A DNA stretch of 53,092 nt from Acidobacteriota bacterium (lineage in GTDB: Bacteria; Acidobacteriota; Terriglobia; Acidiferrales; UBA7541), in the NCBI GenBank assembly GCA_003224525.1, contig QHZB01000196.1:1-53092 (forward strand), in the 5' to 3' direction. Positions 5,465-21,804 of the stretch are shown one piece after another (position 1 is the first letter of the stretch; every line of letters starts with the position of its first letter). Made by a program: the position numbers and the translations under genes. Below the pieces are notes generated by a model. The model had not been told where the DNA came from. It ran no database searches and worked only from the letters and a program-made list of their open reading frames with translations.

Positions 5465-5809
5465 CTAATTGGCATGAAACTCAAATTCAACAACTTGGGT
5501 GGTCTCTTCCGGCGCAGGCACAAACTTCCATTCCTTCGCGGCGTCCTGGCAAGCCTGAACGAGCAAGGGGTGTCCCCCGACGACCCGGGTGCTTTTCACA
5601 CGTCCCTCGGGCGTGATGACGACTTCGATTTTGACCTTCCCGGCAACGTTCATTCGTTTTGCGAGGTCCGGATACAAAGGCGCCGTCTTGGTCTTGACCT
5701 TGCGCTTGGATTCATCCGTCGAACTAGACTGTGCAAATCCAGAAGCGCAAGAAAAAACGAGCGCCGCCGTTGTGGCCACAGCCAACTTTTTCCACCTGCC
5801 GGTTCTCAT
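5465..5809 (-). CDS. Small secreted TonB C-terminal-domain protein
   Basis: A 114-aa protein with a cleavable-looking signal peptide (residues 1 to about 22, ending SGFAQ). It is followed almost at once by a TonB C-terminal fold: APLYPDLAKRMNVAGKVKIE, TPEGRVKSTRVVGGHPLL, AKEWKFVPA. TonB proteins normally span the inner membrane and have a proline-rich linker; both are absent, so this looks like a free periplasmic TonB-C module. I chose ATG at 5809 because a GAGGAG ribosome-binding site lies 8 bases ahead of it. A GTG at 5815 is only 2 bases from that site. The gene is first in line behind a predicted sigma54 promoter and precedes the MCP gene by 82 bases. The fold call is solid; its role in the chemosensory operon is inference. 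Confidence 0.85.
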   Translation of the reverse strand: MRTGRWKKLAVATTAALVFSCASGFAQSSSTDESKRKVKTKTAPLYPDLAKRMNVAGKVKIEVVITPEGRVKSTRVVGGHPLLVQACQDAAKEWKFVPAPEETTQVVEFEFHAN

Positions 5810-5854
5810 CGACACTACTCCTCAATGGATTGGAAGATGACCCGCATAAGAGAA

Positions 5855-6098: not shown

Positions 6099-6113
6099 GA
6101 CTCACATTGAGAC
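6099..6113. promoter_or_regulatory. Inverted-repeat site GACTCA-CAT-TGAGAC in front of the kinase operon
   Basis: Same 6-3-6 architecture as the site at 6021, with one mismatch in the left arm. A further TGAGAC half site follows at 6151. It lies 65 bases before the probable start of the histidine kinase gene and could serve autoregulation of the kinase-activator operon. No correctly spaced -24/-12 element is seen between it and the gene. Confidence 0.45.
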
Positions 6114-6178
6114 TCCCCGGTAGGGTTGGAGTGCGCAGCGCCTCGCAACTTGAGACGCATGACGCATCCTCCTGGTCG

Positions 6179-8539
6179 ATGCCCAGAATAAAGCTAACAC
6201 CGTCCGATTATCCCACCCGCCACCGCGGAAGGGCGGAGCCGCACCTGGCGATGTCGAGACACGCCGAGGAATTAATGGAACTCGCGGTGGAGGCGGCGCA
6301 GTCGCGAGATCTGCCGGATTTTCTGGAACAGTTTGCGTTGCGTTCGGCGCGAATGCTGGATGCCTGCTGGGGAGGCGTGGCCGTTTACCGCGGACGCGAA
6401 ACGGAACTTCACGCCATGCCGGGAAGCCGCGGAGCCACAACGGAAGCCGGCGCAGACTGGCTCGTTTCGTGCGCGCGGGCAAGCCAGAACGATGTGGAGA
6501 CTCGAGCGATCCCCAAGGAGGTTGCCGCGGGCATGCCCATTCCTGAAGTGCCGGGAACAATTGTGTTTGTAAGGATCGCGGCGAGCGACAATGAAAGACT
6601 GGGAACACTCTGCCTAATCCGGAACCGAAAGACACTGGGCGCGAATGAGAAACGATTGCTGCATGCGCTGGCGAGTCATGCGGCGCTTTCGCTGGAGAAT
6701 TTCCGGCGATTCTCGCAACTGGAGAGGTCCAAACGGCAATGGGTGGAAGACATCGACGCGATCAGCGATTACATCGTGGTGCACGACCGCGCGTGGAAAA
6801 TCGTTCGAACGAACCGCTCACTTGCGTCCCACCTTGGCGTGCCGCCAGTGGCCCTGGTAGGCGAGGCCATGAGCAGTCTGAGGCAGATCGCGGAGACAGG
6901 AAGCGATCTTCCCTGCCCGTTTTGCCGGGATACGCAGCGATCGAAGGAAGAGTACGTGGCCGCATCGGTGGAGCGCATTTTTCTCGTTTCCACCTCTCGA
7001 ACGCCGGGCGTTTCCGACGACGATACGCGGACCATTCATGTTCTGAAGGACATTACCGACCGGCGGGAAGCGGAACGGCGGTATCGCGAGCTGTTTGACA
7101 GCATCCAGGAAGGATTGTTTTTCGCCACGCCGGACGGGAGATTCCTGGACGTGAATGACGCGATGGTGCGCATGCTGGGATACGCGTCGCGGGAGGAATT
7201 GCTGCGCGCGGACGTGAGCCCGCATCTGTATCCCGTGCCGGAAGCGCGTGAGAAATTCCTGCGGGCTCTTTCCGAGAGAGGGGTCTTGCGCAATTACGAA
7301 GAGACCCTGAGGCGCAAGGATGGAACGCTGCTGCACACGCTGCAAAATATCACCGCCGTGCGCGATGCCCGAGGGCGCATCGCGCAAATTCGCGGGCTGA
7401 TGCTGGACGTTACGGAACAGAAGACTTTTCAATCGCAACTGCAGCGGGAACGGGATTTTAACCAGAAGATCCTGAATACAACGCAGAGCATGATTCTGGT
7501 GCTGGATACGGCCGGGCTGATCAGCTACGCCAACCGGCGGTGCTACGAAATTGGCTACCAGGAAGGCGAATTGATCGGACACCGGCTGGTGGACTGGGTG
7601 GAGGCTTCGCACCGGGAAGACTTCGACGCGGCGCTGGAAACAACGGCGAACGGACAGCAAGTGGAAAACCTGGAGCTGCGGGTGCGGCGGAGCGACGGGT
7701 CGATGGGGCATTTTTCGATCAGCCTTAGCCCGATGAGAGACGAACAAAATGCGGTGAACAGCGTGGTGGTAGTGATGACGGACATCACGGACGCGGCGTT
7801 GCTGCAAGCAAAGCTGGCCCACAGCGAAAAAATGGCCACGATTGGGCGGCTGGTTTCCGGGGTGGCACATGAAGTCAATAACCCGCTTGCGGCGATCTTG
7901 GGGTTCACGGATCTTCTGCTGGAGAATCCCGAGGTGCCAGGATCGGCGCGGGAAGATTTGCAGATCATCCTGCGGGAAACCCAGCGAACGAAAGATATCG
8001 TGCAGGATTTGCTGAGTTTCGCGCGGCAGAGACCGGTGCAGCGAGAGCTCGTGCAGGTAAACAGCGTTTTGCGACAGACGATCAAGCTGCGGAGTTATGA
8101 TTTCGCCAGCCATGGCGTCGAGGTGGTGGAAGATTTTGAAGAGACGCTGGCAGCGGCACTGGGCGACTCACAGCAACTGCAGCAAGTCTTTCTGAATATT
8201 CTGAACAATGCATACGATGCGGTGCAGGATGCGGGGCAGCGCGGCCACATCAGAATTCACACGCGGCGGCAGGCTGAGCTGATCGAAGTGGCGATCAGCG
8301 ACAATGGAACGGGGATTATCGATTCACAGCGAATTTTTGATCCTTTTTATACGACCAAGCAGGCGGGCAAAGGCACGGGGCTCGGACTGAGCATTTGTTA
8401 TGGGATCGTGCGGGCGCATGGCGGAGAAATTCAATGCTGGAACAATGAAGGTGGAGCGGGAAGCACTTTTGTGGTGCGCATTCCAGTGGCGACGGAAGCC
8501 GCGCTGGCCGCCGCAGCCACGAAAGAAGCAGGACGATGA
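6179..8539 (+). CDS. Soluble GAF-PAS sensor histidine kinase
   Basis: Cytoplasmic sensor kinase of about 786 aa with no membrane segment. Order: GAF-like domain (about 25-180), three PAS domains (about 190-300, 303-420, 430-545), HisKA dimerisation domain with VAHEVNNPLAAILG (H564), and HATPase with NILNNAYDAV (N box), DNGTGI (G1), FDPFYTTK (F) and GKGTGLGLSI (G2). The first PAS holds a CPFC pair that might bind metal or sense redox state. The start is uncertain. The frame is open from TTG 6107, but that codon overlaps a predicted regulator site. ATG 6179 is used here; ATG 6251 has a GGCGGAG about 12 bases upstream and also leaves the GAF domain intact. It overlaps the receiver gene by 4 bases and forms one operon with the NtrC-type regulator, its likely partner. 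Confidence 0.93.
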   Translation: MPRIKLTPSDYPTRHRGRAEPHLAMSRHAEELMELAVEAAQSRDLPDFLEQFALRSARMLDACWGGVAVYRGRETELHAMPGSRGATTEAGADWLVSCARASQNDVETRAIPKEVAAGMPIPEVPGTIVFVRIAASDNERLGTLCLIRNRKTLGANEKRLLHALASHAALSLENFRRFSQLERSKRQWVEDIDAISDYIVVHDRAWKIVRTNRSLASHLGVPPVALVGEAMSSLRQIAETGSDLPCPFCRDTQRSKEEYVAASVERIFLVSTSRTPGVSDDDTRTIHVLKDITDRREAERRYRELFDSIQEGLFFATPDGRFLDVNDAMVRMLGYASREELLRADVSPHLYPVPEAREKFLRALSERGVLRNYEETLRRKDGTLLHTLQNITAVRDARGRIAQIRGLMLDVTEQKTFQSQLQRERDFNQKILNTTQSMILVLDTAGLISYANRRCYEIGYQEGELIGHRLVDWVEASHREDFDAALETTANGQQVENLELRVRRSDGSMGHFSISLSPMRDEQNAVNSVVVVMTDITDAALLQAKLAHSEKMATIGRLVSGVAHEVNNPLAAILGFTDLLLENPEVPGSAREDLQIILRETQRTKDIVQDLLSFARQRPVQRELVQVNSVLRQTIKLRSYDFASHGVEVVEDFEETLAAALGDSQQLQQVFLNILNNAYDAVQDAGQRGHIRIHTRRQAELIEVAISDNGTGIIDSQRIFDPFYTTKQAGKGTGLGLSICYGIVRAHGGEIQCWNNEGGAGSTFVVRIPVATEAALAAAATKEAGR

Positions 8540-8934
8540 ACGCGCAAAAGGTGTCGTGGACGGGCGGGCCGATCCTGCTGATCGAAGACGAGCCGTCGGT
8601 AATCGCCTTTCTGCGCGCGGCGCTGGAGCGCAAGGGATACGCCGTGGTGAATGCTTCGTCGGGAGCGGAAGGATTGCAGCGGCTTTCGAATGGACGGTAC
8701 GCCGGCGTGATTTCCGACATTCGAATGCCGGGAGCGGTGAATGGGGCGGAAGTGCACGGGTGGATTCAGAAGAACTGCCCGGAACTAAAGAGGCGAATCA
8801 TTCTCATCAGCGGTGACACGGCAAACAGCGATACGCAGGCGTTCCTGGCGCAAAGCGGGACACCGTGCATCGAGAAGCCTTTTCGGGTACAACAACTGAT
8901 ATCAATGGTGGAAAAGACATTCGGTAAACCATGA
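8536..8934 (+). CDS. Single-domain response regulator
   Basis: A 132-aa stand-alone receiver domain with a complete phosphorylation site: acidic pair in LLIEDEPS, phospho-acceptor D61 in ISDIRMPG, switch Ser/Thr in LISGDT, and conserved Lys in IEKPF. No output domain. ATGA overlaps tie it to the kinase gene before it and the activator gene after it, so all three are translationally coupled. It may act as a phosphate sink or relay between the kinase and the NtrC-type regulator, or as an output of its own. Nothing in the sequence settles which. Confidence 0.93.
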   Translation: MNAQKVSWTGGPILLIEDEPSVIAFLRAALERKGYAVVNASSGAEGLQRLSNGRYAGVISDIRMPGAVNGAEVHGWIQKNCPELKRRIILISGDTANSDTQAFLAQSGTPCIEKPFRVQQLISMVEKTFGKP

Positions 8935-10349
8935 GCGACGAGATGAAGACACGATTACTGGTGGTAGATGACGAACAGAGCATCCGCCGCCTGTGCATGA
9001 CGATCGGAAACACGCTGGGATATGCCTGCACGGAGGCGGAAAGCGGGGAGGCAGCGCTGGCGCGACTGGATTCCGATACTCCGGATCTACTACTCACCGA
9101 CCTGAAACTACCTAACATGTCCGGGGTCGAGTTGCTGAAGCAGACGAGAGTGCTCCTCCCGCATACCGAAGTCGCGATCATGACCGGCCACGGCTCGATT
9201 GAATCAGCAGTGGATGCGATGAAACTGGGGGCCTACGACTACATCGAAAAGCCGTTTCGCGTGGAAAAGATGCGGCTGCTGCTGCAGCGCATGGCTGAAA
9301 AGGTGCGACTTGTCTCGGAAAATGAGTTCTTGCGCGAGCGGGTGACAACGGAAGAAAACCTCGACGGTATCATCGGCAGTTCCGCGAATATCCAAGACGT
9401 CCTGCGCATGATTTCCCGGCTGAAAGATACACGGACGCCGGTACTGATCTCCGGCGAAAGCGGCACGGGAAAGGAGCTGGCGGCCCGTGCGATTCACTTC
9501 CGCGGGGCCATGGCAAAAACGCCTTTCGTAGCAGTCGATTGCGGCTCGCTGGTGCCGACACTCATGGAGAGCGAACTGTTCGGATACGAACGAGGCGCGT
9601 TTACGGGGGCGACGAAATCGAAGGCCGGGCTCTTCCAGGCCGCGGATGGGGGAACGATCTTCCTGGACGAGATTGGGGAGCTGCCCCTGGAAATGCAGGC
9701 GAAATTACTGCGCGTGTTGCAGGAAAAAGAAGTGCGGCCGGTGGGCAGCAACGAGAAGATAAGCGTCGATGTTCGCGTGATCGCGGCGACGAATCGCGAT
9801 CTGGAGGCCTCTTATCGCGCTGGAACATTCCGAAAGGACCTGTATTTTCGATTGAACGTGGTGACCGTGCACCTCCCTCCCCTGAGGGAGCGCCGGTCGG
9901 ACATTCCGGTCCTGGTTCATCATTTCCTGGATCGCTACGCCAAAGGCTCGCAGATTCAGGTCACCGCTGCGGCGATGAAGAGCCTGCTGCACTATGACTG
10001 GCCGGGGAACGTCCGCGAGCTGGAGAATTGCATCGCGCGTGCGGTGACCCTCGGTGACGGGAAAATCATTGATGTCGCCGATCTGCCGCCCGCCATTCGG
10101 AGCGAGCAGGCAGACTCGGGGATCGTGACGTCCGAAGACGGCACCACACTGTCTACCACGGCGTTGGCGGACATGGAACGAATGACGATTCTGCGTGTAT
10201 TTGAACAGGCGAATGGCGACAAAGCCCTGGCAGGAAAGATGCTAGGGATCAGCCGCGCGACGCTGTACCGCAAACTGAAGCGTTACAACATTGCGTTAAA
10301 GGCGGGTTCGACAGGAAGTGGGGCTGACCCGCAGGCGGCGCCCCAGTAG
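8931..10349 (+). CDS. NtrC-family sigma54-dependent response regulator
   Basis: A 472-aa transcription activator that uses ATP to open sigma54-RNA polymerase promoters. An N-terminal receiver (about 8-122; D57 in LLTDLKLP, Lys in IEKPF) is followed by the AAA+ domain with Walker A GESGTGKE (about 175-182). It also holds the sigma54-contact loop GAFTGA (about 222-227) and the GGTIFLDEIGELP Walker B region. The C-terminal Fis-type helix-turn-helix (about 425-460) reads GKMLGISRATLYRKLKRY. All activator signatures are intact, so it should be a true sigma54 activator. It is last in the kinase-receiver-activator operon. Three predicted sigma54 promoters with shared inverted repeats lie on either side, making this the best candidate regulator of both chemosensory gene sets. 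Confidence 0.96.
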   Translation: MSDEMKTRLLVVDDEQSIRRLCMTIGNTLGYACTEAESGEAALARLDSDTPDLLLTDLKLPNMSGVELLKQTRVLLPHTEVAIMTGHGSIESAVDAMKLGAYDYIEKPFRVEKMRLLLQRMAEKVRLVSENEFLRERVTTEENLDGIIGSSANIQDVLRMISRLKDTRTPVLISGESGTGKELAARAIHFRGAMAKTPFVAVDCGSLVPTLMESELFGYERGAFTGATKSKAGLFQAADGGTIFLDEIGELPLEMQAKLLRVLQEKEVRPVGSNEKISVDVRVIAATNRDLEASYRAGTFRKDLYFRLNVVTVHLPPLRERRSDIPVLVHHFLDRYAKGSQIQVTAAAMKSLLHYDWPGNVRELENCIARAVTLGDGKIIDVADLPPAIRSEQADSGIVTSEDGTTLSTTALADMERMTILRVFEQANGDKALAGKMLGISRATLYRKLKRYNIALKAGSTGSGADPQAAPQ

Positions 10350-10528: not shown

Positions 10529-10621
10529 TCTCTGTCATCGGAAGTCTGCGTCTCTTGCGGCGAGTAGTGTGTCTTGCCACCAGGGAGCGATTGGATTCTG
10601 ACCGGTAGGGCGAGAGGCGAT

Positions 10622-10975
10622 TTGGGAAAATCCGACGGCTTGGCAGGCACAGCGAACGAGCAAGACTGCGCAGAGCGGTTGGCGAGATTCTTTCCGCAGG
10701 CAAGACCCGTTCGAATTCCAGTGCACGTGACCGCGTCGCGCGGAGGCAGGACCAGTCTTCGCGAAGCTGCAATCGTGGAATTTGGCGGCCCGGAGCACGC
10801 TATTTTTCTTTCCAACTTGCCGCTGGAGTTCGACGACCGCGTGCGGATCGAGGCAACCGGAGAAGGACAGCCGGCGGAGGCAAATGTCGTCGGCGTGCAG
10901 TATCACGAAGGACGCAAAGCGGTGGCCGTCCGATTCTTACATGGCCCCTGCGACTGGGTGGTGACAGAGCCGTGA
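10622..10975 (+). CDS. PilZ-like domain protein (tentative)
   Basis: A small protein of 117 aa whose central part (VRIPVHVTASRGG, AIVEFGGPEHAIFLSNLPLE, VVGVQYHEGRKAVAVRF) has the beta-barrel rhythm of PilZ domains. The cyclic-di-GMP signature ([D/N]xSxxG) is not clear: the expected place reads EFGGPEHA. Binding of that nucleotide is therefore doubtful. The start is a TTG at 10622 preceded by GAGAGG with short spacing; a TTG at 10574 in the same frame would add 16 residues. No ATG is available. The stop overlaps the GTG of the next gene. It is the first gene after a predicted sigma54 promoter. PilZ proteins often accompany type IV pilus control, which suits the Chp-like cluster downstream. Confidence 0.6.
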   Translation: MGKSDGLAGTANEQDCAERLARFFPQARPVRIPVHVTASRGGRTSLREAAIVEFGGPEHAIFLSNLPLEFDDRVRIEATGEGQPAEANVVGVQYHEGRKAVAVRFLHGPCDWVVTEP

Positions 10976-12456
10976 ACAAAACAATGACAACGCTGAATCT
11001 CTCCGCTCCAGCAAAATCGGAAAGCTCGCGGCAGGCGCAATGGAAGGAAGCGCGCTCGGTGTTTCCGATCTATCTGGCGCTCGCGAAACAACTGGAGTTC
11101 GAAATTCCCTTTCCGCAAGCGCAGCGGAACCTCCCTGAGATAGCGGACCTGGAAATCTTCAGCCAAGTGCACGAGTGGCTGGATTCGATGGACCAGCGCG
11201 TGATGGTGCATCAACTCCGTCATCTTCTGCAGATGACGACGCTGAACGCCAGCGAAGCGGGACTGCGCGCGCTGATTCAGCGTCATCTGCGCAAGACAAC
11301 GAAAAGCAATTACGATCGAGACAAGATCGACTTCCTGCTCGTACAGTACTTTGCGCTCTGCGCGCCCGCAAAGATTTATCACAAACAGATTGCACTGGCG
11401 GATGTCGCGCAGGTCATCCAACCAGTGCTCGGAGATGTGGAGCCGGACCCGCTCGCATGGTGTGCGCCGCTGGAGCAAATGATCGATGCGCTACGGGGCT
11501 TCCGCAGCCTGAGAGAGATCCTGAAAACGAATTTCATCGAGCAGGGCCGCAAGGTGAAGGAAACGGCCGGCGCGATGTTCTACGATCCCGCGGCGCTGGT
11601 GGCTTTCATCCGGTTTAATTTCCTAATGCGCCGGACGTTGATCGAGTTGATGCACGCAGACTTGATCGCCATCCGCGCCGGACTCGGCCAACTGCAATCC
11701 GCAGGTGCACGCATCATCGACTGCCACCATTTCGGACTGTCGGCCACCGAACCACTTCCAAAAATTTGTGCGATGGCCGACGAGTGGAAACAGCCCTTCC
11801 AAAAAAGCTACACGGAACGGTCGGTCAGCCAGGCCTTCGAAGAGCTACTCGGGCTGCGCACCGACGTGGAGCAGGCCATCGAGAAGGCACTTGTAAAATC
11901 GGGCGAAAGCTCTCCTCAACCGACAGCAGTGGAGCTAGGAAAGCCTCTCCCGGCGGCGACCAAGCCCGCGGCGGAACCCACGGCTTCCACTGCCAACGCG
12001 AAAGCGAAGGAGCGTCCTCGGACACCTGCGACGGAGGAGGCGGATGCCATTGTGGTGCTGGATTTTGAAAACTGCATGGAGCAAGTCTGGGAGCAACTGA
12101 TCGCCACACCGCCTTCGCGTGGAAGGTCGATGACCACCGTCAAGATCGGGGGAGCGCGAATTCTGATGTCGTCATGGGAAGTAACGGCGTTCGTCAGCGA
12201 AGACGGGCCCTCCGCGGAGGATTTGCGGCGGGCCGTTGTGGCCCGGGCGCTGGTCACTGCGGCAACGGAATCCGCCAAGGAAACGGGGAATGCCACGTCG
12301 CTCGACCGAGCGATGAACATTGCGCGCGTGGAAGTCACTCGATTGCAAGAGCGCGTGGATATGGCCAAGCGAGCGAAGGATACGGAAGCGGCGGTAAACC
12401 TCGGGATCAGTACGAAACGTCTGCTCTCGGCGCTGGACGAAGCAGAAAAACTGTAA
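10972..12456 (+). CDS. Unrecognised 494-aa cytoplasmic protein in chemosensory operon
   Basis: I do not recognise a family. No signal peptide or membrane helix is visible. The first two thirds (about 1-310) is a helical, Leu/Ile-rich region with patches such as VMVHQLRHLLQM and FLVQYFALCAP. An Ala/Pro-rich linker follows (about 311-355). A C-terminal alpha/beta then helical part starts with ADAIVVLDFENCMEQVWEQL and ends in a charged helix (RLQERVDMAKRAKDTEAA). The GTG start overlaps the stop of the PilZ-like gene, so the two are coupled; ATG 10984 is an alternative. A 56-base gap separates it from the receiver/DHp-like gene. Its position between regulators and a full Chp-like set suggests a dedicated but undescribed signalling or motility role. 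Confidence 0.85.
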   Translation: MNKTMTTLNLSAPAKSESSRQAQWKEARSVFPIYLALAKQLEFEIPFPQAQRNLPEIADLEIFSQVHEWLDSMDQRVMVHQLRHLLQMTTLNASEAGLRALIQRHLRKTTKSNYDRDKIDFLLVQYFALCAPAKIYHKQIALADVAQVIQPVLGDVEPDPLAWCAPLEQMIDALRGFRSLREILKTNFIEQGRKVKETAGAMFYDPAALVAFIRFNFLMRRTLIELMHADLIAIRAGLGQLQSAGARIIDCHHFGLSATEPLPKICAMADEWKQPFQKSYTERSVSQAFEELLGLRTDVEQAIEKALVKSGESSPQPTAVELGKPLPAATKPAAEPTASTANAKAKERPRTPATEEADAIVVLDFENCMEQVWEQLIATPPSRGRSMTTVKIGGARILMSSWEVTAFVSEDGPSAEDLRRAVVARALVTAATESAKETGNATSLDRAMNIARVEVTRLQERVDMAKRAKDTEAAVNLGISTKRLLSALDEAEKL

Positions 12457-12512: not shown

Positions 12513-13196
12513 TTGCGACACGCCAACGTAGTCATTCTCACCGACGAAACCGAATTTGCCCAGCTGCTGACGGCCTGCTGGCAGGCCGAACGCCAGGCCC
12601 CGAACATCACTGTCCTCAATAGCGATTCGTGGCGTGAACAAGCTGCACCAACTCACGACCTGGTCGTGGTGGGGCCAGTGCGCGATGGAAAAATTACCAG
12701 CGTGCTGCGCTCTCTCGATCCGGCAACCGCGGTCATCCTTTGCGCTCCGGCAGATTCCCGGGAATTCGGGCAGTTGCGCACCAAGTATCCAAGACTGGTG
12801 CATATCCCGCTTCGCGAAGACTGGGCGCAAACGCTTTTGCTGGTGGCCGGCGAATCGCTGCGCCGAGCGAAAGCTTTGCAGACTGCACGGCAAGCGGAGC
12901 AGAACGCCGCCAGAAACGAGAACCACGCCACACTCGGGCGCTACATGCTGGACATGAAGCACAGCGTGAACAACGCGCTGACCTCCATGCTGGGAAATGC
13001 CGAATTGCTGCTGCTGGAGCCCGGACAGCTTTCCTCCCAGTCGCTGGCACAGATTAAGACCATGCACAGCATGGCGCTGCGAATCAACGAGGTGATGCAG
13101 CGTTTCTCATCGCTTGCAAGCGAGATGCGGGAAGCTGAGAATGCATCTCAAGCTGAGACAGAAGAGACGACAATGCCAACTTCGCGCCGTCGCTGA
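12513..13196 (+). CDS. Degenerate receiver fused to a DHp (HisKA-like) domain without ATPase
   Basis: About 227 aa. The N-terminal half resembles a receiver fold (NVVILTDETEFAQLLTACWQ, THDLVVVGPV, TAVILCAPA), but the phospho-Asp position is not convincing (DLVVVG). The C-terminal half is a histidine-kinase dimerisation helix pair with MKHSVNNALTSMLGNAELLL. This aligns with the H box of HisKA kinases (H-x-x-N-N). The protein ends about 50 residues later, where an ATPase domain would normally begin. Such a domain can act as a phosphotransferase (Spo0B style) or be phosphorylated in trans. The start is a TTG at 12513 with AGGGAG about 10 bases ahead; the open frame continues further up into the preceding gene but that part is antisense-like overlap. 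The predicted activator site at 13145 lies inside its 3' end. Confidence 0.82.
   Translation: MRHANVVILTDETEFAQLLTACWQAERQAPNITVLNSDSWREQAAPTHDLVVVGPVRDGKITSVLRSLDPATAVILCAPADSREFGQLRTKYPRLVHIPLREDWAQTLLLVAGESLRRAKALQTARQAEQNAARNENHATLGRYMLDMKHSVNNALTSMLGNAELLLLEPGQLSSQSLAQIKTMHSMALRINEVMQRFSSLASEMREAENASQAETEETTMPTSRRR
13145..13159. promoter_or_regulatory. Inverted-repeat activator site ATCTCA-AGC-TGAGAC
   Basis: Differs from the palindrome at 6021 in only 2 of 15 positions. It is centred about 151 bases upstream of the predicted start at 13303. It lies in the coding 3' end of the preceding gene, where it overlaps another TGAGA-N5-TCTCA repeat beginning at 13135. Confidence 0.55.
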
Positions 13197-13276
13197 GTTC
13201 CTCCGACATCGCTGCAACCTGCTCATTTAAAGATATTTAGCGTGAAACGACACCGGAGCACGCGGAATGCAAAAGC

Positions 13277-13292
13277 TGGCTGCCGACGTGCA
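13277..13292 (+). promoter_or_regulatory. Predicted sigma54 promoter of the Chp-like operon
   Basis: TGGCTGCCGACGTGCA with GG-N10-GC spacing; 12 of 16 positions equal the element at 5855 (minus). Predicted start about 13303. This places the GTG start at 13330, with its GGAGA ribosome-binding site at 13316, about 27 bases into the transcript. It argues against the upstream ATG at 13267. Confidence 0.6.
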
Positions 13293-13329
13293 CCTTTGCT
13301 CTATGGACAAGTATGGAGAAACGACGGCT

Positions 13330-13692
13330 GTGCATAAAAAAGTTCTAATCGTTGATGACTCCCCCGCTGAGGTCAGGCTGATCGAAGGCTTGCTGGAAAA
13401 GGAAGGCTATTGGCCGATTGCGTTGCACGACCCCAGGCGCGTCGAGGAAACCATTACGAACGAGCGGCCCAGCGTGATTCTGCTCGATGTGGTGATGCCG
13501 GACCGAAACGGGTTTCAGATTTGCCGCGATCTCAAAGGGAACGCGGAGTTCAACATGATTCCGGTGATCCTGGTGACCTCGAAAGATACGGCGAGCGACA
13601 AGTATTGGGGCCAGCAGCAAGGCGCGGATGGATACGTCACGAAGCCCTTCACCCGGGAAGATCTGCTACGCGCGGTGCGGCGGTTTGCATGA
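13330..13692 (+). CDS. PilG/PilH-like response regulator
   Basis: A 120-aa single receiver domain. Phosphorylation site: DD in LIVDDSP, D53 in ILLDVVMPDRNGF, Thr in LVTSKD, Lys in VTKPF. The VMPDRNGFQICRDLK stretch and the sequence around VTSKDTASDKYWGQQQGADG closely resemble the PilH/PilG receivers of type IV pilus chemosensory systems. GTG at 13330 is chosen because GGAGA lies 9-10 bases upstream and because the predicted sigma54 start is at about 13303. In-frame ATGs at 13267 and 13303 would add 21 or 9 residues. First gene of the chp-like operon. Confidence 0.92.
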   Translation: MHKKVLIVDDSPAEVRLIEGLLEKEGYWPIALHDPRRVEETITNERPSVILLDVVMPDRNGFQICRDLKGNAEFNMIPVILVTSKDTASDKYWGQQQGADGYVTKPFTREDLLRAVRRFA

Positions 13693-13717: not shown

Positions 13718-14245
13718 ATGAGCGAAGACTTCCATCTCGAGCCCCTTCCCGCAGACGCTGATACCGGGGATCTGCTCGAAGCTCTTGGGCCGATCGAAGA
13801 GCGGCCGCCAGAGTCGCAGTATTGCGTCTTCCGCAGCGGACGCGAGCGATTCTGCCTGCCGGTCTTGGACGTCGAGGAAGTGCTTGATTGGCCGTTACTG
13901 ACAAAGCTCCCACTTGGCCCCGCATACCTGGTGGGAATATTCAATTTGCGCGGCGCTATCGTGCCGTTGATAGACATTGCGATTTCCGAAGGCCGCCGGC
14001 AAGGCTTGCTCCCCAAGCACGTGGTGGTCGCTTCCCTGCGCATCGAGAACCATCACGAGGACATTCGGATCGGCATCGCCGCAGACGAAGTCATCGGAAC
14101 CTATTCGGTGAACACCGAGGATTTGCTCGAGCAAGCGCCGGAAAATGTGCCGCATTGCATCGGAATGTTGCGGCATGACGACCGCCTGGCGCTGGTCATC
14201 GATTTGCGCCGGCTGCTCGAAGTTTTTCCGGGGCCCAGCATTTGA
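13718..14245 (+). CDS. CheW/PilI-like adaptor
   Basis: A 175-aa CheW-domain protein with a roughly 30-residue acidic N-terminal extension. Core motifs: [39 protein letters not shown] (the NLRG..P..D signature) and [18 protein letters not shown]. It links the downstream MCP to the hybrid CheA. By order (receiver, CheW, MCP, CheR, CheA, CheB) it corresponds to PilI of the Pseudomonas pilGHIJK-chpABC cluster. It lies 25 bases after the receiver gene. Confidence 0.93.
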
Positions 14246-14306
14246 GTTTGGTGGAGACCACGCTGATCGACAGGGCGGGCTCCGCGGAAGAGATTTGGAG
14301 GGTGGC

Positions 14307-15734
14307 ATGAAATCGCGACTGAGTTCCACAATCTGGATGCTGGTCCTGCTGAACGCAGTGGTCGGCTGCTTCGTCCTCTGGCTTGCCTTCAACGCCGGGA
14401 AGAAGGCCGGTGACGCCTCCTTTCTGGACTTTGGCTCGCCGGCCGGCGGAAGCATACTCTTCGCCATCTTACTCGCGGTGGTGACGTGGGGCATTCTGGC
14501 GTGGCGGTTCGGGGCGTTGCTGGGGCCGGTGCAGGCTCTCTCAGAATTCTCCGAACGCTTTGCAGCCGGGGACCCGCGCGCACGCGCAGAGGTCACTTCG
14601 AACGATGAACTGGGCTACATTGCAGAAAATCTGAATCGCGCGGTCGCCAAAGTGTCCAAGGCCACGAGCAACCAGGATGCCAACGACGCGCTGCAGCGCA
14701 GCATCACTGAATTGCTAAGCGTCATCAACCAAGTAGCCCGCGGGGATTTGTCGCAGCGCGGCAAAGTGAGCAACGACGCGCTTGGAAACGTAACGGATTC
14801 GATCAACTACATGCTCGATAATTTCACCAAGGTCCTCGAGCGCGTCCGCAAAGCGGCCATGGAAGTGACCGCGTGCTCCAACAACATTCTCGTAGCCGCC
14901 GATGAAATGCAGGCGGGCGCTACGCAGCAAGACCAGGAAATTACCAACACCTCGAGTGCCGTCGAAGAGCTTACGGTCTCCATGAAACAGGTTTCGAACA
15001 ACGCCGAAGCGAGCGCCGAGGCGGCCCGCCGCGCGCTGGATGCCGCCGAACAGGGCAACCGCGCGGTCCGCGACACGCTCGAGGGCATGCAGCGAATCCG
15101 CGCTTCGGTACAGGCGACTGCCAAGAAAATCAAGTCTCTCGGCGACCGCTCGCTGGAAATTTCCGAGATCATCAACGTCATTAACGACATAACGGAACAG
15201 ACGAACCTGTTGGCGTTGAACGCGGCGATCGAGGCAGCACGCGCTGGGGAGGCGGGGCGAGGCTTTGCGGTCGTCGCTGACGAAGTCCGCAAGCTCGCCG
15301 AACACAGCCGCAGCGCGACGAAGGATATCGCGGCGCTCATCAAGGCGATCCAGGCGGAGACGAACGAAGCGGTCGTGGTCATGGAAGAAGGCACAAAGGA
15401 AGTGGAAGGCGGCGCACAACTTGCCGATCAGGCAGGCCGCGCGCTGGACGCCATTTCCAACGTGGTGCGCCAATCAGCGGAACTCGTACAGGAAATCTCG
15501 CTAGCTTCAAAGCAGCAGGTCCGCGGAACAGAAGGAGTAGCGCACGCCATGCAGATCATTTCGAGTATCACGCGGCAGACATCGCAAGGAACGCGCGGGA
15601 CGGTGGCAACTGTAAGCCAGCTCGTCAAGCTGTCGGATCAATTGAACGAGGCACTGGCGCAATTCCGCGCGTCATCCAAAGCAGCAGCGCATGAAGATTC
15701 CGCGCGACCCGTCCCGGCCGGCGCTCTTCGTTAA
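14307..15734 (+). CDS. PilJ-like methyl-accepting chemotaxis protein
   Basis: A 475-aa chemoreceptor. A first membrane segment (about 8-28) and a second (about 45-68) enclose a periplasmic loop of only about 17 residues. It therefore probably senses through the membrane, the cytoplasm or a partner rather than by a periplasmic ligand domain. A HAMP region (about 70-125) is followed by a second HAMP-like stretch ([15 protein letters not shown]). The signalling coiled coil has a canonical tip ending [23 protein letters not shown] 14307 is preceded by a strong GGAGGGTGG. The short periplasmic part differs from Pseudomonas PilJ, but gene order supports an equivalent position. Confidence 0.94.
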
Positions 15735-15797
15735 GCAGTGACGCTCTTCTTCGCCAGGTGGCGGAACTAAGAACGCGGCCCAGAAGACGGGAGCACG

Positions 15798-16682
15798 ATG
15801 AGCGAACGCCAGGGACAGGTGCACGGACTGAGCGAACACGAGCTAAGCGAGATTCGCATGTTGATCGAAGAGCGGACGGGAATTTGCTTCGATGAATCGC
15901 GCGAGCGCTTCTTCTCCACGCGTGTGCGGGAACACCTGCGCTCAAAAGGAATGGAACACGGCACGGAACTGCTGCGCGCCGTGCGCAAATCCAACGTCGA
16001 ATACGAGGGGCTGCTCGAGCGGCTGCTGACGCAGGAAACGAGCTTCTTCCGGTATCCCGGTGTGTATGAAGCGTTCGAAAAGCGCGTGCTACCCGAGTTG
16101 CACACGAAGAAATTCTGGAAGAATCCGCGCACCCTGAGGATTTGGAGCGCAGGCTGCTCAACGGGTGAAGAGCCATATTCGATCGGCATCACGATCGCGG
16201 ATTCACTGTCGTTCGCGGATGCCTGGAACGTCGAAATACTTGCAACCGATGTCGGACGTCACGCCCTGAAGCACGCTGAACGCGGGATCTACAAAGGGCG
16301 CAGCATAGCCAGCGTGAGCGAGAGGCAGCTGGCAAATCACTTTACAGAGGTCGGCGGCGGGCATCAAGTAAGGCCGCGGCTCCGCAAGATGGTTTCGTTT
16401 GCGCAGATGAATCTTGCTTCGGCGGTATACGTCGGCCACATGGACATGATTTTCTGCATGAACGTCCTGATCTACTTTTCCGAAGAGCGCCGGCGCTCGC
16501 TGGTGCAACGGTTCTACGACACGCTGGAACCGGGCGGCTATCTGTTCCTGGGGCACTCGGAGTCGATCTCCAAGATGCCGGTGAAGTTCCAAGCTATCGT
16601 GTTGAACGATTGCATTCTCTACCGGAAGCCGACCGCGGATGAATTGCAGAAGCTGGAACTCGTGGCGGAGGGGCGAGCGTGA
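15798..16682 (+). CDS. cheR: Chemoreceptor methyltransferase CheR/PilK-like
   Basis: 294 aa, usual CheR length. The N-terminal domain contains LTQETSFFRYP. The SAM-binding loop is RIWSAGCSTGEEPYSIG. The later part has DMIFCMNVLIYFSEE and GGYLFLGHSES. It methylates the MCP encoded 63 bases upstream and overlaps the hybrid cheA by 4 bases (GTGA). In order it matches PilK of the type IV pilus system. It is clearly distinct in sequence from the other CheR of the window (1910-2815). Confidence 0.95.
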   Translation: MSERQGQVHGLSEHELSEIRMLIEERTGICFDESRERFFSTRVREHLRSKGMEHGTELLRAVRKSNVEYEGLLERLLTQETSFFRYPGVYEAFEKRVLPELHTKKFWKNPRTLRIWSAGCSTGEEPYSIGITIADSLSFADAWNVEILATDVGRHALKHAERGIYKGRSIASVSERQLANHFTEVGGGHQVRPRLRKMVSFAQMNLASAVYVGHMDMIFCMNVLIYFSEERRRSLVQRFYDTLEPGGYLFLGHSESISKMPVKFQAIVLNDCILYRKPTADELQKLELVAEGRA

Positions 16683-19663
16683 GCACGCTGGATCGCGAAG
16701 CCGTCGAGCTATTCCTCCAGGAAGCCTCGGAGAACCTGCAGTATTTGCGGGAGTATGTGAGCGTGCTTCAGGACGTGGAGCCGCGCCGCGAAGACCTGGA
16801 ACGGCTTTACATCTCGGCTCACACACTGAGCGGCACTTCGGCGAGCTATGGATTTCCGCGGTTCTCTGAAATTGCCGGCAAACTCGCGCACGTCTTTCAA
16901 TACGCCCTGAACGCGACTCTCGGGAGCGATCTCCACGGGCCGTTGACGGAATTCCTTTCGGATGGAATTTCGCTGCTGGAAACGGTTCTTCTGGAAATCA
17001 GCGACACCGGCAAAGAAAGTACCGATGATATCGCCGTTTTCAAGGAGCGCTATCGCTTCGCGTTTCCGACGGAACCACCGCCACTGAATCTTTCCCCCCC
17101 AGAAGTGCGTGAGCGATTCGTTGTGGAGGAGCGCGATGAGCCCATTACCGCTGCAGCGACGGGCTCTTACTTTGACGCGCTGCCGCTTGACCAAGAGGTG
17201 CCGGACGAGATCCTTGAGTTCTTCCAGCCGGAAGCGGAAGAGCATCTCCAGGTCGTCAGCGATTGCCTTATTTCGCTGGAAGGCAACAACAATCCGGAGG
17301 AGATCAATAAACTCTTTCGCGCCATTCACACAGTAAAAGGCTCAGCAGCGCAAGTCGGGCTGAAGAGACTGGGAGCAATTGCACACCGCGTCGAGGATTT
17401 GATCGGCCGTTTGCGCGATGGAGAGATTGAACCGTCGCCCGGCGTCGTGGATTTGTGTCTTGAGTCAGTGGACGTTTTGAAGAAGACGCTCCACCGCCAG
17501 TGGGCAAGTGAAGTCGAGATGCGAACGGGCATCGATTCGCTGTTGGGCCGCATCGCGGAATTTGCTCCGCTCGACCCGGAAGATGCGGAAGTTTCGGCCG
17601 GGTCTGCCGGGGCAGCGGAACTTCGGCATGCGAGCGAAGTAGCAGCCACAACAAAAATCGCCACACCCGCAAAAAAGCCTGGGAAACAATCCGCAAGCGG
17701 CACGTCGACGGTAAAATCGGTTCGAATTGCGCTTGCCCGGCTCGACCGCATGATGAACACGGTCGGTGAACTGGTCATTAATCGTACGCGCATGGTCGGC
17801 CGTGTAGCGGAACTCGAAAAGCTCATCGATACGCTGAGCTTCTCGAAAGAGCGGCTGCAGGGCAAAGTCGCCGAATTTCAGGAAAAGTACGAATTTAACC
17901 GCATCAGTAACAACCGCGCCGCCCAGGGACAGTGGAAGTCCGAGCCGACACCAAAGATGCTTACGAGCGCAGCTGCGGGCGACACATCGTTCTGGTCCGA
18001 ATTCAGCGAACTGGAAATGGACCGCTACGACGATTTCAATATCTTGTCGCGGTCGATGGCCGAGATTTCAGCAGACGTCAACGAAGTACTCTCGCAACTG
18101 CAAGGGTTCATCGGGCGCGTCGAAGGCGATATCGACGAATTCACGAAATTGGCGCATCACCTGCAGGACGAGATTACTGCCGCGCGAATGGTTCCGATAG
18201 GTACGCTCTACTCGCGATTGTCGCGGGCCGTTCGCGATGCAGCGAATTCGACTGGCAAGCACGTCGAACTGGACCTTTCCGGAAGTGAAACCGAGCTCGA
18301 TAACAATATCATTCAGCAGATTTCCGACCCTCTGGTGCACCTGGTGCGCAACTCGGTGGCGCACGGCATCGAGCACAGCAGTGACCGCACCGCCGCCGGC
18401 AAATCGTCCACCGGGAATATCATGTTGCGTGCCTATCACCGCGGCAACCACATTTACATCGAGGTCGAGGATGACGGCGGTGGAATCAAGTACGAGCGCG
18501 TGAAGCAAAGCGCGATCGAACGCGGGCTAGTTTCCGAGGAGACTGCCGACCGCCTTACGGAACGCGATCTTCGGGAGATGCTTTTCCATCCCGGGTTTTC
18601 AACGGCTCCCGTGAAAACGGAACTGGCTGGGCGTGGAGTCGGGCTCGATGTGGTGCGGGCAAATCTGACCGCGCTCAACGGCGAAATCGATATCCAGAGC
18701 ACGAGCGGCAAGGGCACCAAGTTTACGCTCAAGGTGCCCCTCACCCTGATCATTTCCCCGGCCCTGTTTGTGCGCTGCGGCACGACGAATTTCGCGCTGC
18801 CATTGGCAGTTGTCGAGGAAATCCGCCGCCTGCGCGCTGATGAAATCGAGGACGTCGGCGGCAAACTGCTGACCAAAGTACGCGACGTGGTTACCGAGGT
18901 CGTGCGTTTAGATACCTATCTGGGGTTGCCGCCTCTTGAAGCGATCAATGGCTACTTCCGTATGGTGGTGGCAAATGCCGGAAACCGGAAGATCGGTCTC
19001 GTCGTGGAAGAAGTTCTTGGCAAGGACGAAATCGTTATCAAAAACCTGGGTGAATACCTGCGCCGCGTGAAACTCTTCCCGGGTACGACGATTGCGCCCG
19101 ATGGCAGCCTCATTCTGCTGATCGACTTGAACCGCATGGTGGCGACAGAGCCAAACGAGCGCCGGCCGATACAAGCTAGCGCCAGCGCCGCGCGAATATT
19201 TGCGCCGGGCTCGACGGCGATTGCGCGCGGAAACATTCCTTCCGAGGCCATCGACCGCGTCGAGCAAGAGCGCGTAATCGTGGTTGCGGACGACTCCATC
19301 AGCGTGCGCAAATTCGTCGGCCGAATGCTCGAGAAGAACGGCTACCGCGTGAAGCTGGCGGCCGACGGACTGGAAGCGGCCGAACTGGTGACGCAGCACG
19401 GCTGCCATCTGGTTATCACCGACCTCGAAATGCCACGCATGACAGGTTACGAATTAATGGTGCAACTGCGCCAGAGCCCCTCGACGCGGCGAATCCCGGT
19501 GATGGTCGTTACCTCTCGCGCGGGTGCGAAGCATCGCGATCGCGCGATGAAGGAAGGCGCCACGGCCTTCCTGACCAAACCGGTGCAGGAGGATCAACTG
19601 ATCGCGGCGGTTGAACAACTCATAGGAACGGAGGCGCCACGCACCGTCGCGCCGGTAGCGTAA
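16679..19663 (+). CDS. Hybrid chemotaxis kinase CheA with two HPt domains and a receiver (ChpA-like)
   Basis: 994 aa. Order: HPt1 with SAHTLSGTSASYGF (H48), HPt2 with AIHTVKGSAAQVGL (about H217), Ala-rich linker, P3 dimerisation (LDRMMNTVGELVINRTRMVG) with a long insertion of about 100 residues in its helical hairpin. The ATPase follows (LVHLVRNSVAHGIEH, DDGGGIKY, GRGVGLDVV), then a CheW domain and a C-terminal receiver (about 866-985; D915 in ITDLEMPRMTGYE, Lys in LTKPV). Multiple HPt domains and a fused receiver are the hallmark of ChpA kinases that control type IV pili. It overlaps cheR by 4 bases and cheB follows after 7 bases. ChpA of Pseudomonas has more HPt-type domains, so this is a compact version. 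Confidence 0.95.
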   Translation: MSTLDREAVELFLQEASENLQYLREYVSVLQDVEPRREDLERLYISAHTLSGTSASYGFPRFSEIAGKLAHVFQYALNATLGSDLHGPLTEFLSDGISLLETVLLEISDTGKESTDDIAVFKERYRFAFPTEPPPLNLSPPEVRERFVVEERDEPITAAATGSYFDALPLDQEVPDEILEFFQPEAEEHLQVVSDCLISLEGNNNPEEINKLFRAIHTVKGSAAQVGLKRLGAIAHRVEDLIGRLRDGEIEPSPGVVDLCLESVDVLKKTLHRQWASEVEMRTGIDSLLGRIAEFAPLDPEDAEVSAGSAGAAELRHASEVAATTKIATPAKKPGKQSASGTSTVKSVRIALARLDRMMNTVGELVINRTRMVGRVAELEKLIDTLSFSKERLQGKVAEFQEKYEFNRISNNRAAQGQWKSEPTPKMLTSAAAGDTSFWSEFSELEMDRYDDFNILSRSMAEISADVNEVLSQLQGFIGRVEGDIDEFTKLAHHLQDEITAARMVPIGTLYSRLSRAVRDAANSTGKHVELDLSGSETELDNNIIQQISDPLVHLVRNSVAHGIEHSSDRTAAGKSSTGNIMLRAYHRGNHIYIEVEDDGGGIKYERVKQSAIERGLVSEETADRLTERDLREMLFHPGFSTAPVKTELAGRGVGLDVVRANLTALNGEIDIQSTSGKGTKFTLKVPLTLIISPALFVRCGTTNFALPLAVVEEIRRLRADEIEDVGGKLLTKVRDVVTEVVRLDTYLGLPPLEAINGYFRMVVANAGNRKIGLVVEEVLGKDEIVIKNLGEYLRRVKLFPGTTIAPDGSLILLIDLNRMVATEPNERRPIQASASAARIFAPGSTAIARGNIPSEAIDRVEQERVIVVADDSISVRKFVGRMLEKNGYRVKLAADGLEAAELVTQHGCHLVITDLEMPRMTGYELMVQLRQSPSTRRIPVMVVTSRAGAKHRDRAMKEGATAFLTKPVQEDQLIAAVEQLIGTEAPRTVAPVA

Positions 19664-19670
19664 ACGAACA

Positions 19671-20795
19671 ATGGCGACCGCCAATAAAAAGTTTCGTGTG
19701 CTTGTCGTGGATGATTCCACATTCATGCGGAAGGTCCTTGAGAGGATTTTCAACACTGACGAGCAACTGCAGGTCGTGGGCAACGCCAAGGACGGCCGCG
19801 AGGCCGTTGCACTGGCGGAATCACTGAAGCCTGATGTCATCACCATGGACATCAATATGCCTCACGTGGACGGACTCCAGGCCACTGCGGAAATCATGAC
19901 CACGAATCCGCGGCCGATCGTCATCGTCAGCTCGGAATCGCACGAAGGCGCAGCGAGCACTCTTCGAGCGCTGGAACTCGGAGCGATTGAATTTGTCGCC
20001 AAGCCATCAAGCGCCATCGACCTCGACATGCAGAGTGTGAAGGAAGACCTTCTGCGCAAGGTGCGCATGGCAGCCAAAGTGCGTGTCGTGCGCACGGCTT
20101 CACGCCTGGCATTGACGATTCAGAATGCCATCGGCTCCAAGACTCCGTCCCCCGCCCCGGTGAGCGCCCGCCCCATGCCTACGACCGGACTAGATCAGCG
20201 CTTCCCTGTAGTCGTGCTGGCAGCGTCGACGGGCGGACCAGCGACTGTCATGCGCATCGCTCCAGGCTTCACGGGAGACTTCCCTGCGGCAGTAATTCTG
20301 GTGCAGCACATGCCTGCGGCATTCACAACGCAATACGCCGCGCAACTCGCGGAATTCACCGGAATCCGCGTGAAAGAAGCGGAAGCCAATGAGTCGCTTC
20401 AGCCAGGAACGCTCTATATCTGTCCAGGCGGTCAGCATCTTCGAGTTACATCCACGGGTCGAATCCAGCTTGACGGGACCAGCGGCCGCATTAATGGTTA
20501 TCTGCCGAATATTGACGCTACCATGGAATCCGTTGCGGCCTTTGCCGGCCCACTAAGCATTGCGGGTGTTTTAACAGGCATGGGTAACGATGGGGCTAGT
20601 GGGGCCAAGGCAATCAAGGCGGCCGGAGGCCTGGTGGTAGCGCAGGACGAAGCAACGTCCGTGATTTTCGGCATGCCAGCCGAGGCTATCAAGGCCGGCG
20701 CTGTCGATCAGGTGCTCGGTATTGACGACATTTATGCCGCCATCGAAAAACGTGTCCTGGGAATCTGCCGCACGGCACCGGCGGGAGTTCGCTAA
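19671..20795 (+). CDS. cheB: Protein-glutamate methylesterase CheB
   Basis: 374 aa. Receiver (about 8-125; D in ITMDINMPHVDG, Lys in VAKPS), linker, and C-terminal methylesterase (about 180-365). The catalytic triad is visible: Ser in LAASTGGPA, His in LVQHMPAAF and Asp in TGMGNDGA. It removes methyl groups from receptors and opposes CheR. It is the only CheB in the window. It starts 7 bases after the hybrid cheA and its stop overlaps the next start by one base (TAATG). Confidence 0.96.
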   Translation: MATANKKFRVLVVDDSTFMRKVLERIFNTDEQLQVVGNAKDGREAVALAESLKPDVITMDINMPHVDGLQATAEIMTTNPRPIVIVSSESHEGAASTLRALELGAIEFVAKPSSAIDLDMQSVKEDLLRKVRMAAKVRVVRTASRLALTIQNAIGSKTPSPAPVSARPMPTTGLDQRFPVVVLAASTGGPATVMRIAPGFTGDFPAAVILVQHMPAAFTTQYAAQLAEFTGIRVKEAEANESLQPGTLYICPGGQHLRVTSTGRIQLDGTSGRINGYLPNIDATMESVAAFAGPLSIAGVLTGMGNDGASGAKAIKAAGGLVVAQDEATSVIFGMPAEAIKAGAVDQVLGIDDIYAAIEKRVLGICRTAPAGVR

Positions 20796-21328
20796 TGCGT
20801 CTGGCGACCCCCGCGAAGGCCAGTCCGGCAAAGACGGAACAGATCATTCTCTTTCGCGTCAGCGGCCAATTGTTCGCTATCTCTTCGTCTTCGGTACAAG
20901 AAGTGCGCAGCGCGGATAGCATGTCAGGCGGGGCTACCGAAATCAGTGCGCCCGGCCTTCGAAAAGTTCGCCACGTTCTGCGGCGCGGGGACAGGTCACT
21001 CTTCATCGTCAACGGCGCCATGCATTTTGGATTGCACGCGGCGGAGGGAGCACAGCTATTTGTGCTGCGCAAGACGCGCACGGCCCTCTTGATCGATGGC
21101 ATCGAGAAGATGACGACTATGACGCAGTTGCAGGCGCTTCCACTCTCCTTCTGTCACGAAGAGCGGCAATGGTACCGCGGACTGACGGCCCTCGATCAGA
21201 CGGTCGTACCAGTGGTGCATCCGGAAGGGTTTTTGTCGCCGCAAGAACTGGCTCTGCTCGATGCGGCTCTTTTGCAAGCGGACAAGACCGAAAGCGAGAA
21301 TCTTGAGAGGACAAGCGCCGGGCAATGA
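20795..21328 (+). CDS. Divergent CheW-like protein
   Basis: 177 aa with a CheW-like core: IILFRVSGQLFAISSSSVQEVRS at the N-terminus, a central RRGDRSLFIVNGAMHFGL replacing the usual NLRG motif, and a C-terminal half that ends with YRGLTALDQTVVPVVHPE. Because the NLRG..P..D signature is lost, it may scaffold a subset of receptors or may bind something other than CheA. The position after cheB matches chpC of the Pseudomonas cluster. Start and stop overlap the neighbours (TAATG before, ATGA after). Confidence 0.8.
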   Translation: MRLATPAKASPAKTEQIILFRVSGQLFAISSSSVQEVRSADSMSGGATEISAPGLRKVRHVLRRGDRSLFIVNGAMHFGLHAAEGAQLFVLRKTRTALLIDGIEKMTTMTQLQALPLSFCHEERQWYRGLTALDQTVVPVVHPEGFLSPQELALLDAALLQADKTESENLERTSAGQ

Positions 21329-21804
21329 CGGTATCGACCGAACTCGAACTGCAATCGTTCGTCCTGCTGCGCCTTGGCGAACGGAGGTTTGCCGTCTCGG
21401 CGAACCAGATTGCCGAGCTCGTTGCCCCGAGCCGGGTTTTTCGCTTTCCGCACCGAACACCAAAATTGGAAGGTGTGATTCTGCGACGAGGCCGGATCGT
21501 TCCAGTATGCGACGTTTCTGAAATGCTGCTCGGGAAACGCCTGACGTCCCGCCGCTTTTACCTGATCGCCGTGCGCAAATACGGAGCGCAGCGGGAATGG
21601 GTGGCGGTGCCGGTTACTGGTGAATGCGAATTGATCAAAGCGGAGATGATGGCGGCGGTCGAATCCGACGCGCCTCACGTCGCAGGGTGGCTGTCGCATG
21701 ACGGCGATGTGATCGAAGTCTTGAATCTCGACGCAATCACGCCCGGCCCGGAACAGCTGCTCGCGGAAGCCGCGGCGCGGCAAAGACCGGAGGTGCGACC
21801 GTGA
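21325..21804 (+). CDS. CheW-like protein
   Basis: 159 aa, single CheW domain: FVLLRLGERRFAVSANQIAEL, then LEGVILRRGRIVPVCDVSEM (a diverged NLRG..P..D motif), then AGWLSHDGDVIEVLNLDAI. It is coupled by 4-base overlaps to the divergent CheW before it and the receiver-DUF4388 gene after it. With three CheW-type proteins for one CheA, this set could build arrays with different partners. Confidence 0.87.
   Translation: MTVSTELELQSFVLLRLGERRFAVSANQIAELVAPSRVFRFPHRTPKLEGVILRRGRIVPVCDVSEMLLGKRLTSRRFYLIAVRKYGAQREWVAVPVTGECELIKAEMMAAVESDAPHVAGWLSHDGDVIEVLNLDAITPGPEQLLAEAAARQRPEVRP

Follow-up and report, generated by a model that had tools for sequence, protein, structure and literature searches.

The analysed window, a stretch of 53,092 nucleotides of acidobacterial DNA, contains a gene (positions 12513–13196, forward strand, 227 aa) whose product consists of a receiver fold without the phospho-Asp and a HisKA-type DHp hairpin, and has no ATPase domain. 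Judging from the alignments, this protein and its orthologs, referred to here as family A, may represent a DHp that has retired from kinase work and binds a receiver, either to dephosphorylate it or to read its state (rough probability, 0.45).

The ORF has a TTG start. It is not a chance frame, since stop-free matches to it are present in 36 out of 36 genomes of its own genus, the source genome included. Orthologs, defined by a match across both halves of the protein or by a match cut by a contig end, were detected in 60 of the 151 genomes searched: all 36 of the genus, 22 other members of the family and two from another family of the class. With matches of every length counted (E ≤ 0.001), 101 of the 151 genomes gave one, and the matches in the 41 genomes beyond the 60 are shorter, some of them representing the paralogous family B described below and others lying within long frames. 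In a phylum-wide draw (E ≤ 1e-8), 12 of 297 genomes gave matches, of which five are full-length (own genome, G135, G141, G263 and G406, all within the class), and the remaining seven are partial and located inside frames of 478 to 1303 aa, which are probably kinases.

The residue counts given below refer to 87 aligned rows (the window, 57 from relatives and 29 from named Terriglobales-type loci), which are phylogenetically related, so that the counts are not independent, and which include one duplicate (L048 and L164, zero tree distance). L059 (G076), with a stop in the match, and G060, with the match split over two contigs, were excluded; L133, which to judge by its length is a named copy of the L059 contig, carries Pro at position 150. 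Terriglobales-type denotes a clade of records titled Acidobacteriaceae, Sulfotelmatobacter, Angelobacter, Terriglobia and similar, to which we take the order name Terriglobales to apply. A second set of 81 rows (the window and the best 80 of 146 named loci) overlaps largely with the first. Searches with the focal protein gave no match in PHROGs at E ≤ 0.01, a single match (E-value, 0.92) among the sequences of solved structures, and AtoS as the best NCBIfam match (E-value, 0.011). No report of a receiver joined to a DHp without an ATPase domain in acidobacteria was found among literature titles and abstract openings, a source that covers few subscription journals; one of the papers listed concerns the accessory regulator RocA (PMC7028121).

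The earlier note on this DNA described the N-terminal half as receiver-like and devoid of a convincing phospho-Asp, and both points were borne out. In the AlphaFold2 model of the single chain (81 sequences; mean pLDDT, 87.8; pTM, 0.66), residues 5–103 form a domain of alternating strands and helices, and VIA-align matched the N-terminal half to solved receivers with Z up to 14.9. It is on the basis of this predicted fold, and not of the receiver profile, that residues 1–103 (12513–12821, forward strand) are modelled as a receiver: PF00072 gave no match to this half at E ≤ 5, and is absent from the 21 Pfam families listed for 81 members (E ≤ 1). Foldseek matches to flavodoxin and CENP-M were taken as the common alternating fold. 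At the end of the third strand, the phospho-Asp position (Gly54 in the window) is occupied by Gly in 85 and by Ala in two of the 87 rows; the acid pair is retained, with D11 in all 87 rows and D or E at position 12 in 85.

The DHp hairpin in the C-terminal half (residues 139–204; 12927–13124, forward strand) was recognised by a HisKA match, by the predicted fold and by profile comparison. HisKA (PF00512) matches residues 146–202 of the focal protein with an E-value of 8.6e-5 and 23.0 bits, which does not reach the Pfam gathering cut-off of 26.9; across the aligned members it matches 81 out of 81 at E ≤ 1 (best, 5e-8), with the next family at 6/81. hhalign analysis aligned residues 131–203 with the DHp of the kinase from the upstream gene (29% identity; probability, 91; E-value, 9.3e-7). 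In the model, two long helices (104–168 and 175–220) form a two-helix hairpin, and pLDDT stays below 50 over at least three residues only at 224–227. HATPase was not matched by the focal protein (Pfam, E ≤ 5), nor does it figure in the Pfam list of the 81 members, and according to both Pfam and the predicted fold the DHp is followed by a short tail only, a degenerate ATPase-like domain being absent as well. Hpt (PF01627) likewise has no match in the window protein (E ≤ 5) and is absent from the families listed for the 81 members (E ≤ 1). Thus, the previous description of a DHp domain without an ATPase, and of a histidine box in the C-terminal half (MKHSVNNALTSMLGNAEL, residues 148–165), was accurate.

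EutV and AmiR are RNA-binding ANTAR proteins, and LvrB is a protein with an ATPase domain. LvrB (PDB 8vc9) ranked first by E-value in the Foldseek search, followed by EutV/AmiR (PDB 6ww6, 1qo0) at ranks 2 and 4. LvrB resembles the focal protein in having an N-terminal receiver followed by a DHp, and is the sole listed row of the VIA list that covers both halves (Z, 13.6; 202 aligned; rmsd, 13.3), its rmsd being taken as a possible hinge between the modelled halves. Unlike the focal pseudo-receiver, the receiver of LvrB works, as the entry is titled a phosphorylated receiver form. EutV and AmiR share with the focal protein a receiver-like domain and long helices; an antiterminator of this type was rejected despite the high Foldseek ranks, as, in the comparison with Pfam profiles, HisKA is matched by all 81 members and the model has only two long helices.

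Position 150 (codon 12960–12962, forward strand) is His in 68, Pro in 18 and Asn in one of the 87 rows, and His in 65, Pro in 15 and Asn in one row of the second set. Loss of the histidine in orthologs, which according to the earlier note would speak against phosphotransfer, is therefore real in 19 of the 87 rows and does not extend to 35 of the 36 own-genus rows or to any of the 31 rows of the Terriglobales-type clade; the sole Asn150 row (L052) falls in the own genus. In a tree built by a quick method without column 150, 15 Pro150 rows lie on one side of a branch (SH-aLRT, 97), three long-branched Pro rows are unplaced, and the three states need three changes. The acid at His+1 is lost in 86 of the 87 rows (Asp in L143), and the Pro at His+5 is absent from all 87. 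Asn154 at His+4 (codon 12972–12974, forward strand), the counterpart of N375 of CrdS, is retained in 82 rows and replaced by Asp in five (L037, L045, L046, L149 and L162).

The docking face T157...G161-N162 (+7, +11 and +12; 12981–12998, forward strand) is invariant at each of these positions in 87/87 rows. In the 19 rows without His, +3 is Asn in 18, +4 is Asn in 18, and +7 Thr, +8 Ser, +11 Gly and +12 Asn are found in all 19. Mean pairwise identity of the DHp is 0.723 in rows without His versus 0.750 in rows with it, and that of the receiver half is 0.455 versus 0.448. As far as the alignment can tell, the DHp is not relaxed in the rows without His, and its docking columns vary no more there than in the 68 rows that retain it. 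Within the 19 rows, the low entropy of the six docking columns, which had been picked after inspection of the alignment, was equalled by six random columns of the protein as a whole in 9 out of 100000 draws, and by six random columns of helix 1 in 3166 out of 100000.

Such a pattern can be compared with what is published on HisKA kinases. In the cited passages of Willett and Kirby 2012 (PMC3510030), CrdS and three other HisKA kinases, HK853 among them, depend on the +1 acid solely as kinases and on the +4 Asn/Thr solely as phosphatases; mutants lacking the acid keep phosphatase activity. The same passages report that CrdS H371A keeps most of its phosphatase activity (half-life of CrdA~P, 2.6 min, versus 53.5 min alone and 0.7 min with the wild type), that CrdS N375D is inactive, and, citing other work, that a His mutant of PleC lost both activities. 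In HisKA His mutants phosphotransfer was lost and phosphatase activity was not, according to the part of PMC7005713 cited here. The HisKA DHp of CrdS resembles that of the focal protein in its Asn at His+4, but CrdS as a whole is a complete kinase, whereas the focal protein has a pseudo-receiver and no ATPase domain.

DivL, as described in the cited sections of PMC4211667, has Tyr in place of His, yet binds a single-domain receiver, DivK~P. This binding is broken by mutations of residues 553, 557 and 562, which by our own count correspond to +3, +7 and +12, and DivL has no phosphatase activity. The likeness to family A lies in a DHp without the usual His, as in 19 of the 87 rows, in a single-domain receiver as the partner proposed here, and in the same docking positions. 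In contrast, DivL has PAS and ATP-binding domains, and the window protein still carries its His; the combination of a replaced His and a kept docking face is found in the 19 rows and not in the window protein. As far as the cited portions of these papers go, the CrdS, HisKA and DivL results agree with a DHp whose task is to dock a receiver and not to carry phosphate, and they suit dephosphorylating and reading alike.

Under the preferred reading, the DHp hairpin of a retired kinase core, presumably dimeric, would bind a phosphorylated receiver from its own gene neighbourhood through the kinase-regulator docking face (His+3, +4, +7, +8, +11 and +12). The most likely target would be the stand-alone receiver RR1 or the receiver of the NtrC-type activator. 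Dephosphorylation of the docked receiver might be sped via Asn154, or its state might be read as DivL reads DivK~P, and the pseudo-receiver half may serve as a regulatory or dimer-contact domain. Against docking stands the His itself, which in 68 of 87 rows is more than mere docking needs. The docking face is no proof of a phosphatase, because DivL, in the sections cited, has no such activity itself. The five rows with Asp at 154 also speak against a phosphatase, given the reported inactivity of CrdS N375D, and the Asn at +4 could be kept for structure, since the kinase of the same locus has the same NN.

The genes upstream include a PAS histidine kinase with HisKA and HATPase domains and no receiver (6107–8539 by Pfam; the true start may be downstream), RR1, a stand-alone receiver with a phospho-Asp (8536–8934; Pfam and alignment), and the NtrC-type sigma-54 activator (8931–10349; Pfam), all on the forward strand. 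A small protein with a TonB C-terminal domain is encoded beside the kinase on the reverse strand (5465–5815), and similar ORFs were noticed by eye near the kinase in L188, L191–L193 and L046. Among the 34 named loci examined for neighbours (L132–L165 of the best 80), NtrC is found upstream of the focal gene in 17/24 and RR1 in 16/23 of those with enough sequence. Across the 151 genomes, NtrC, which was counted only at E ≤ 1e-165 so that cut copies may be missed, is present in 57 of the 60 genomes with the focal gene and in seven of the 91 without it (gene alone, 3; neither, 84). An NtrC ortholog (68–77% identity) was found in 11 of the 12 genomes where it was not seen whole beside the focal gene.

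RR1 is present in 54 of the 60 genomes with the focal gene versus two of the seven that have NtrC and lack the gene, and the two genes tend to be jointly absent (54/6 versus 2/5; Fisher p = 8e-4, with kinship ignored and the presence tables, as for both Fisher tests, compiled by hand). RR1 was not found in six gene-bearing genomes (G049, G060, G064, G073, G074 and G088), and is missing from the locus itself in G049, G060 and G073; therefore, RR1 cannot be the only partner. The kinase adjoins NtrC without RR1 in G037, G049, G059, G060, G069, G073 and G078 (the kinase of G060 being assigned by place and length); the loci concerned, in which both neighbours of the missing RR1 are present, are L188, L191, L192, L046, L036, L194 and L193. 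No significant association was observed between RR1 and the state of position 150: RR1 is present in 37/39 genomes with His and in 17/21 without (Fisher p = 0.17), the latter including G060, whose residue was unseen.

The earlier note likened the protein to DHp-type phosphotransferases, and the likening is apt. Spo0B is a DHp-type protein used without kinase activity, in a relay with separate receivers. The cited passages describe ChpT (PMC3433190), PhyT (PMC5898713) and PhyK (PMC5964349) in similar terms; the degenerate kinase PhyT receives phosphate from a single-domain receiver and hands it on to PhyR, and PhyK acts similarly from MrrA. The main rival to the docking reading, possible and the less probable of the two, is a split relay in the His-bearing lineages, in which a phosphotransferase of the Spo0B or PhyT type would hand phosphate from the kinase to the Asp of RR1, then to His150 and on to the Asp of NtrC, the Pro lineages being decayed forms. 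The locus supplies the parts of such a chain, namely a kinase that is not a hybrid, the stand-alone RR1 and NtrC, and both the retention of His in the own genus and the Terriglobales-type clade and the joint absence of RR1 and the gene favour it. Unlike ChpT, PhyT, PhyK and Spo0B, family A has a histidine box without the acid and the Pro, and its His is not fixed. In ChpT and PhyT, as far as the cited passages tell, a degenerate ATPase domain is kept, and the focal protein has none. The relay is further weakened by the Pro or Asn at 150 in DHp domains that appear not relaxed, and by the phospho-Asp of RR1, which is still intact in three Pro-type loci (L132–L134).

Family B, a paralogous set that surfaced in the searches with family A, has the same architecture of a receiver-like half and a DHp without an ATPase. 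Its aligned members are L166:8866-9489, L167:9226-9897, L168:8936-9568, L169:8628-9254, L170:8724-9383, L171:9246-9929, L177:8910-9569 and L197–L216. A histidine box of the RHE-NNPLTGILGN type, with His, E/D at +1, Asn at +4 and Pro at +5, is present in 27/27 rows, 20 of which were picked as full-length, so that broken or partial copies are under-represented. With a family B query, matches at E ≤ 1e-14 were obtained in 68 of the 151 genomes, to which the genome of the window does not belong; in a phylum draw of 199 genomes, one family B query matched a single genome, over the DHp only. In 8/8 scanned loci (L166, L170, L171 and L217–L221), the gene immediately before family B encodes a hybrid kinase that ends in a receiver, preceded by NtrC in 3/3.

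This layout suggests a relay from the hybrid kinase through B to NtrC, and makes family B a candidate relay phosphotransferase of the window's order. The existence of such a related set lends some support to a relay in family A as well, and the T-x-x-x-G-N after the histidine box is kept in both families. Nevertheless, family B has the full histidine box (H, E/D, N, P) and the hybrid-kinase setting, and family A has neither, so that the relay idea fits B better than A. The +1 acid is probably useful for phosphate carrying, because family B keeps it without a kinase domain; its loss in family A would therefore argue, together with that of the +5 Pro, against carrying.

Two further genes lie between NtrC and the focal gene on the forward strand: orf133 (10574–10975), a conserved small protein that is PilZ-like by eye only and has no Pfam hit, and orf494 (10972–12456), a mostly helical protein of no known family according to Pfam, fold search and context. 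The latter has no Pfam match, no PHROG match at E ≤ 0.01 and no PDB fold match at E ≤ 0.001. It is the steadiest companion of the focal gene, being found upstream in 30/32 named loci with enough sequence (orf133 in 28/30) and present in 59 of the 60 gene-bearing genomes. With these figures in its favour, family A could be a dimer-forming scaffold for orf494 and orf133 that has no receiver chemistry and keeps the DHp only as a bundle. This explanation is considered unlikely, as the invariant residues fall on receiver-docking positions of helix 1 and not on the core alone, and orf494 is retained without the focal gene in G037, G045, G054 and G069. A C-terminal domain of orf494 (about residues 365–494) was seen in 14 of 37 aligned rows; it is present in 6/6 aligned named loci with the PilH-like receiver next and in 0/23 others, six of the other eight domain-bearing rows falling outside this comparison.

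Directly downstream of the focal gene in the window, on the forward strand, lies the Che cluster. Its first gene (13267–13692; Pfam and gene order) encodes a stand-alone receiver that we take to be PilH-like from the gene order, and is followed by genes for CheW, MCP, CheR, CheA (Hpt-HATPase-CheW-receiver), CheB, CheW and CheW (13718–21804; Pfam). Such a cluster also directly follows the focal gene in 10 of the 34 named loci, nine with the PilH-like receiver next and one (L142) with CheW, MCP and CheA, and this proximity favours the earlier proposal of a relay step that would start from the hybrid CheA or lead to the Che-cluster receivers. In 19 named loci, CheA was found downstream of the focal gene six times. 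Of the 29 Terriglobales-type loci, 19 show no Che gene behind the focal gene other than one that is CheR-like, four show none at all, and L152 has an MCP-like ORF at 45%. The PilH-like receiver, CheW, MCP and CheA were not seen in the 19 CheR-only loci (L137, L138 and 17 others), and Pfam confirmed CheR in both of those scanned, L137 and L138.

Whole-genome searches covered 15 of the 29 genomes, all drafts, 13 of which were chosen for having no Che cluster behind the gene. Where the cluster is linked to the gene, as in two of the genomes (L139 and L154), CheA showed 67–69% and the PilH-like receiver 64–65% identity, whereas orthologs of these two were not found elsewhere in any of the 13 draft genomes without one; 12 of the 13 have another CheA at 34–42%, and L157 has none at that threshold. 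Furthermore, in G037, G045 and G069 the PilH-like receiver, CheW and MCP come straight after orf494 with no focal gene in between, although the kinase and NtrC are kept as well, and in G054, which also lacks the focal gene, CheR directly follows orf494. Such losses suit an accessory regulator better than an obligatory relay step. Thus, CheA is not a conserved partner of the focal protein, orf494, the NtrC activator and RR1 are steadier companions, and the proposed step through CheA or the Che receivers is very improbable.

Tentatively, and with somewhat less confidence than is placed in the docking reading itself, it may be proposed that a bare kinase docking core, without an ATPase domain and with a His that is not obligatory, serves acidobacteria as an independent protein that dephosphorylates receivers or reads their phosphorylated state, and that family B and the His-bearing and Pro-bearing forms of family A are three stages, all extant, on the way from phosphate carrier to docking-only protein. 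In the cited passages ChpT, PhyT and DivL keep an ATPase-like domain, and the two related families described here have dropped it wholly. A full histidine box (B) and a decaying one (A) occur in the same bacterial group. In the portions of earlier work cited here, the DHp residues for carrying, dephosphorylating and docking were approached via point mutants of single kinases; a comparison of families A and B would show which residues serve each of these functions.
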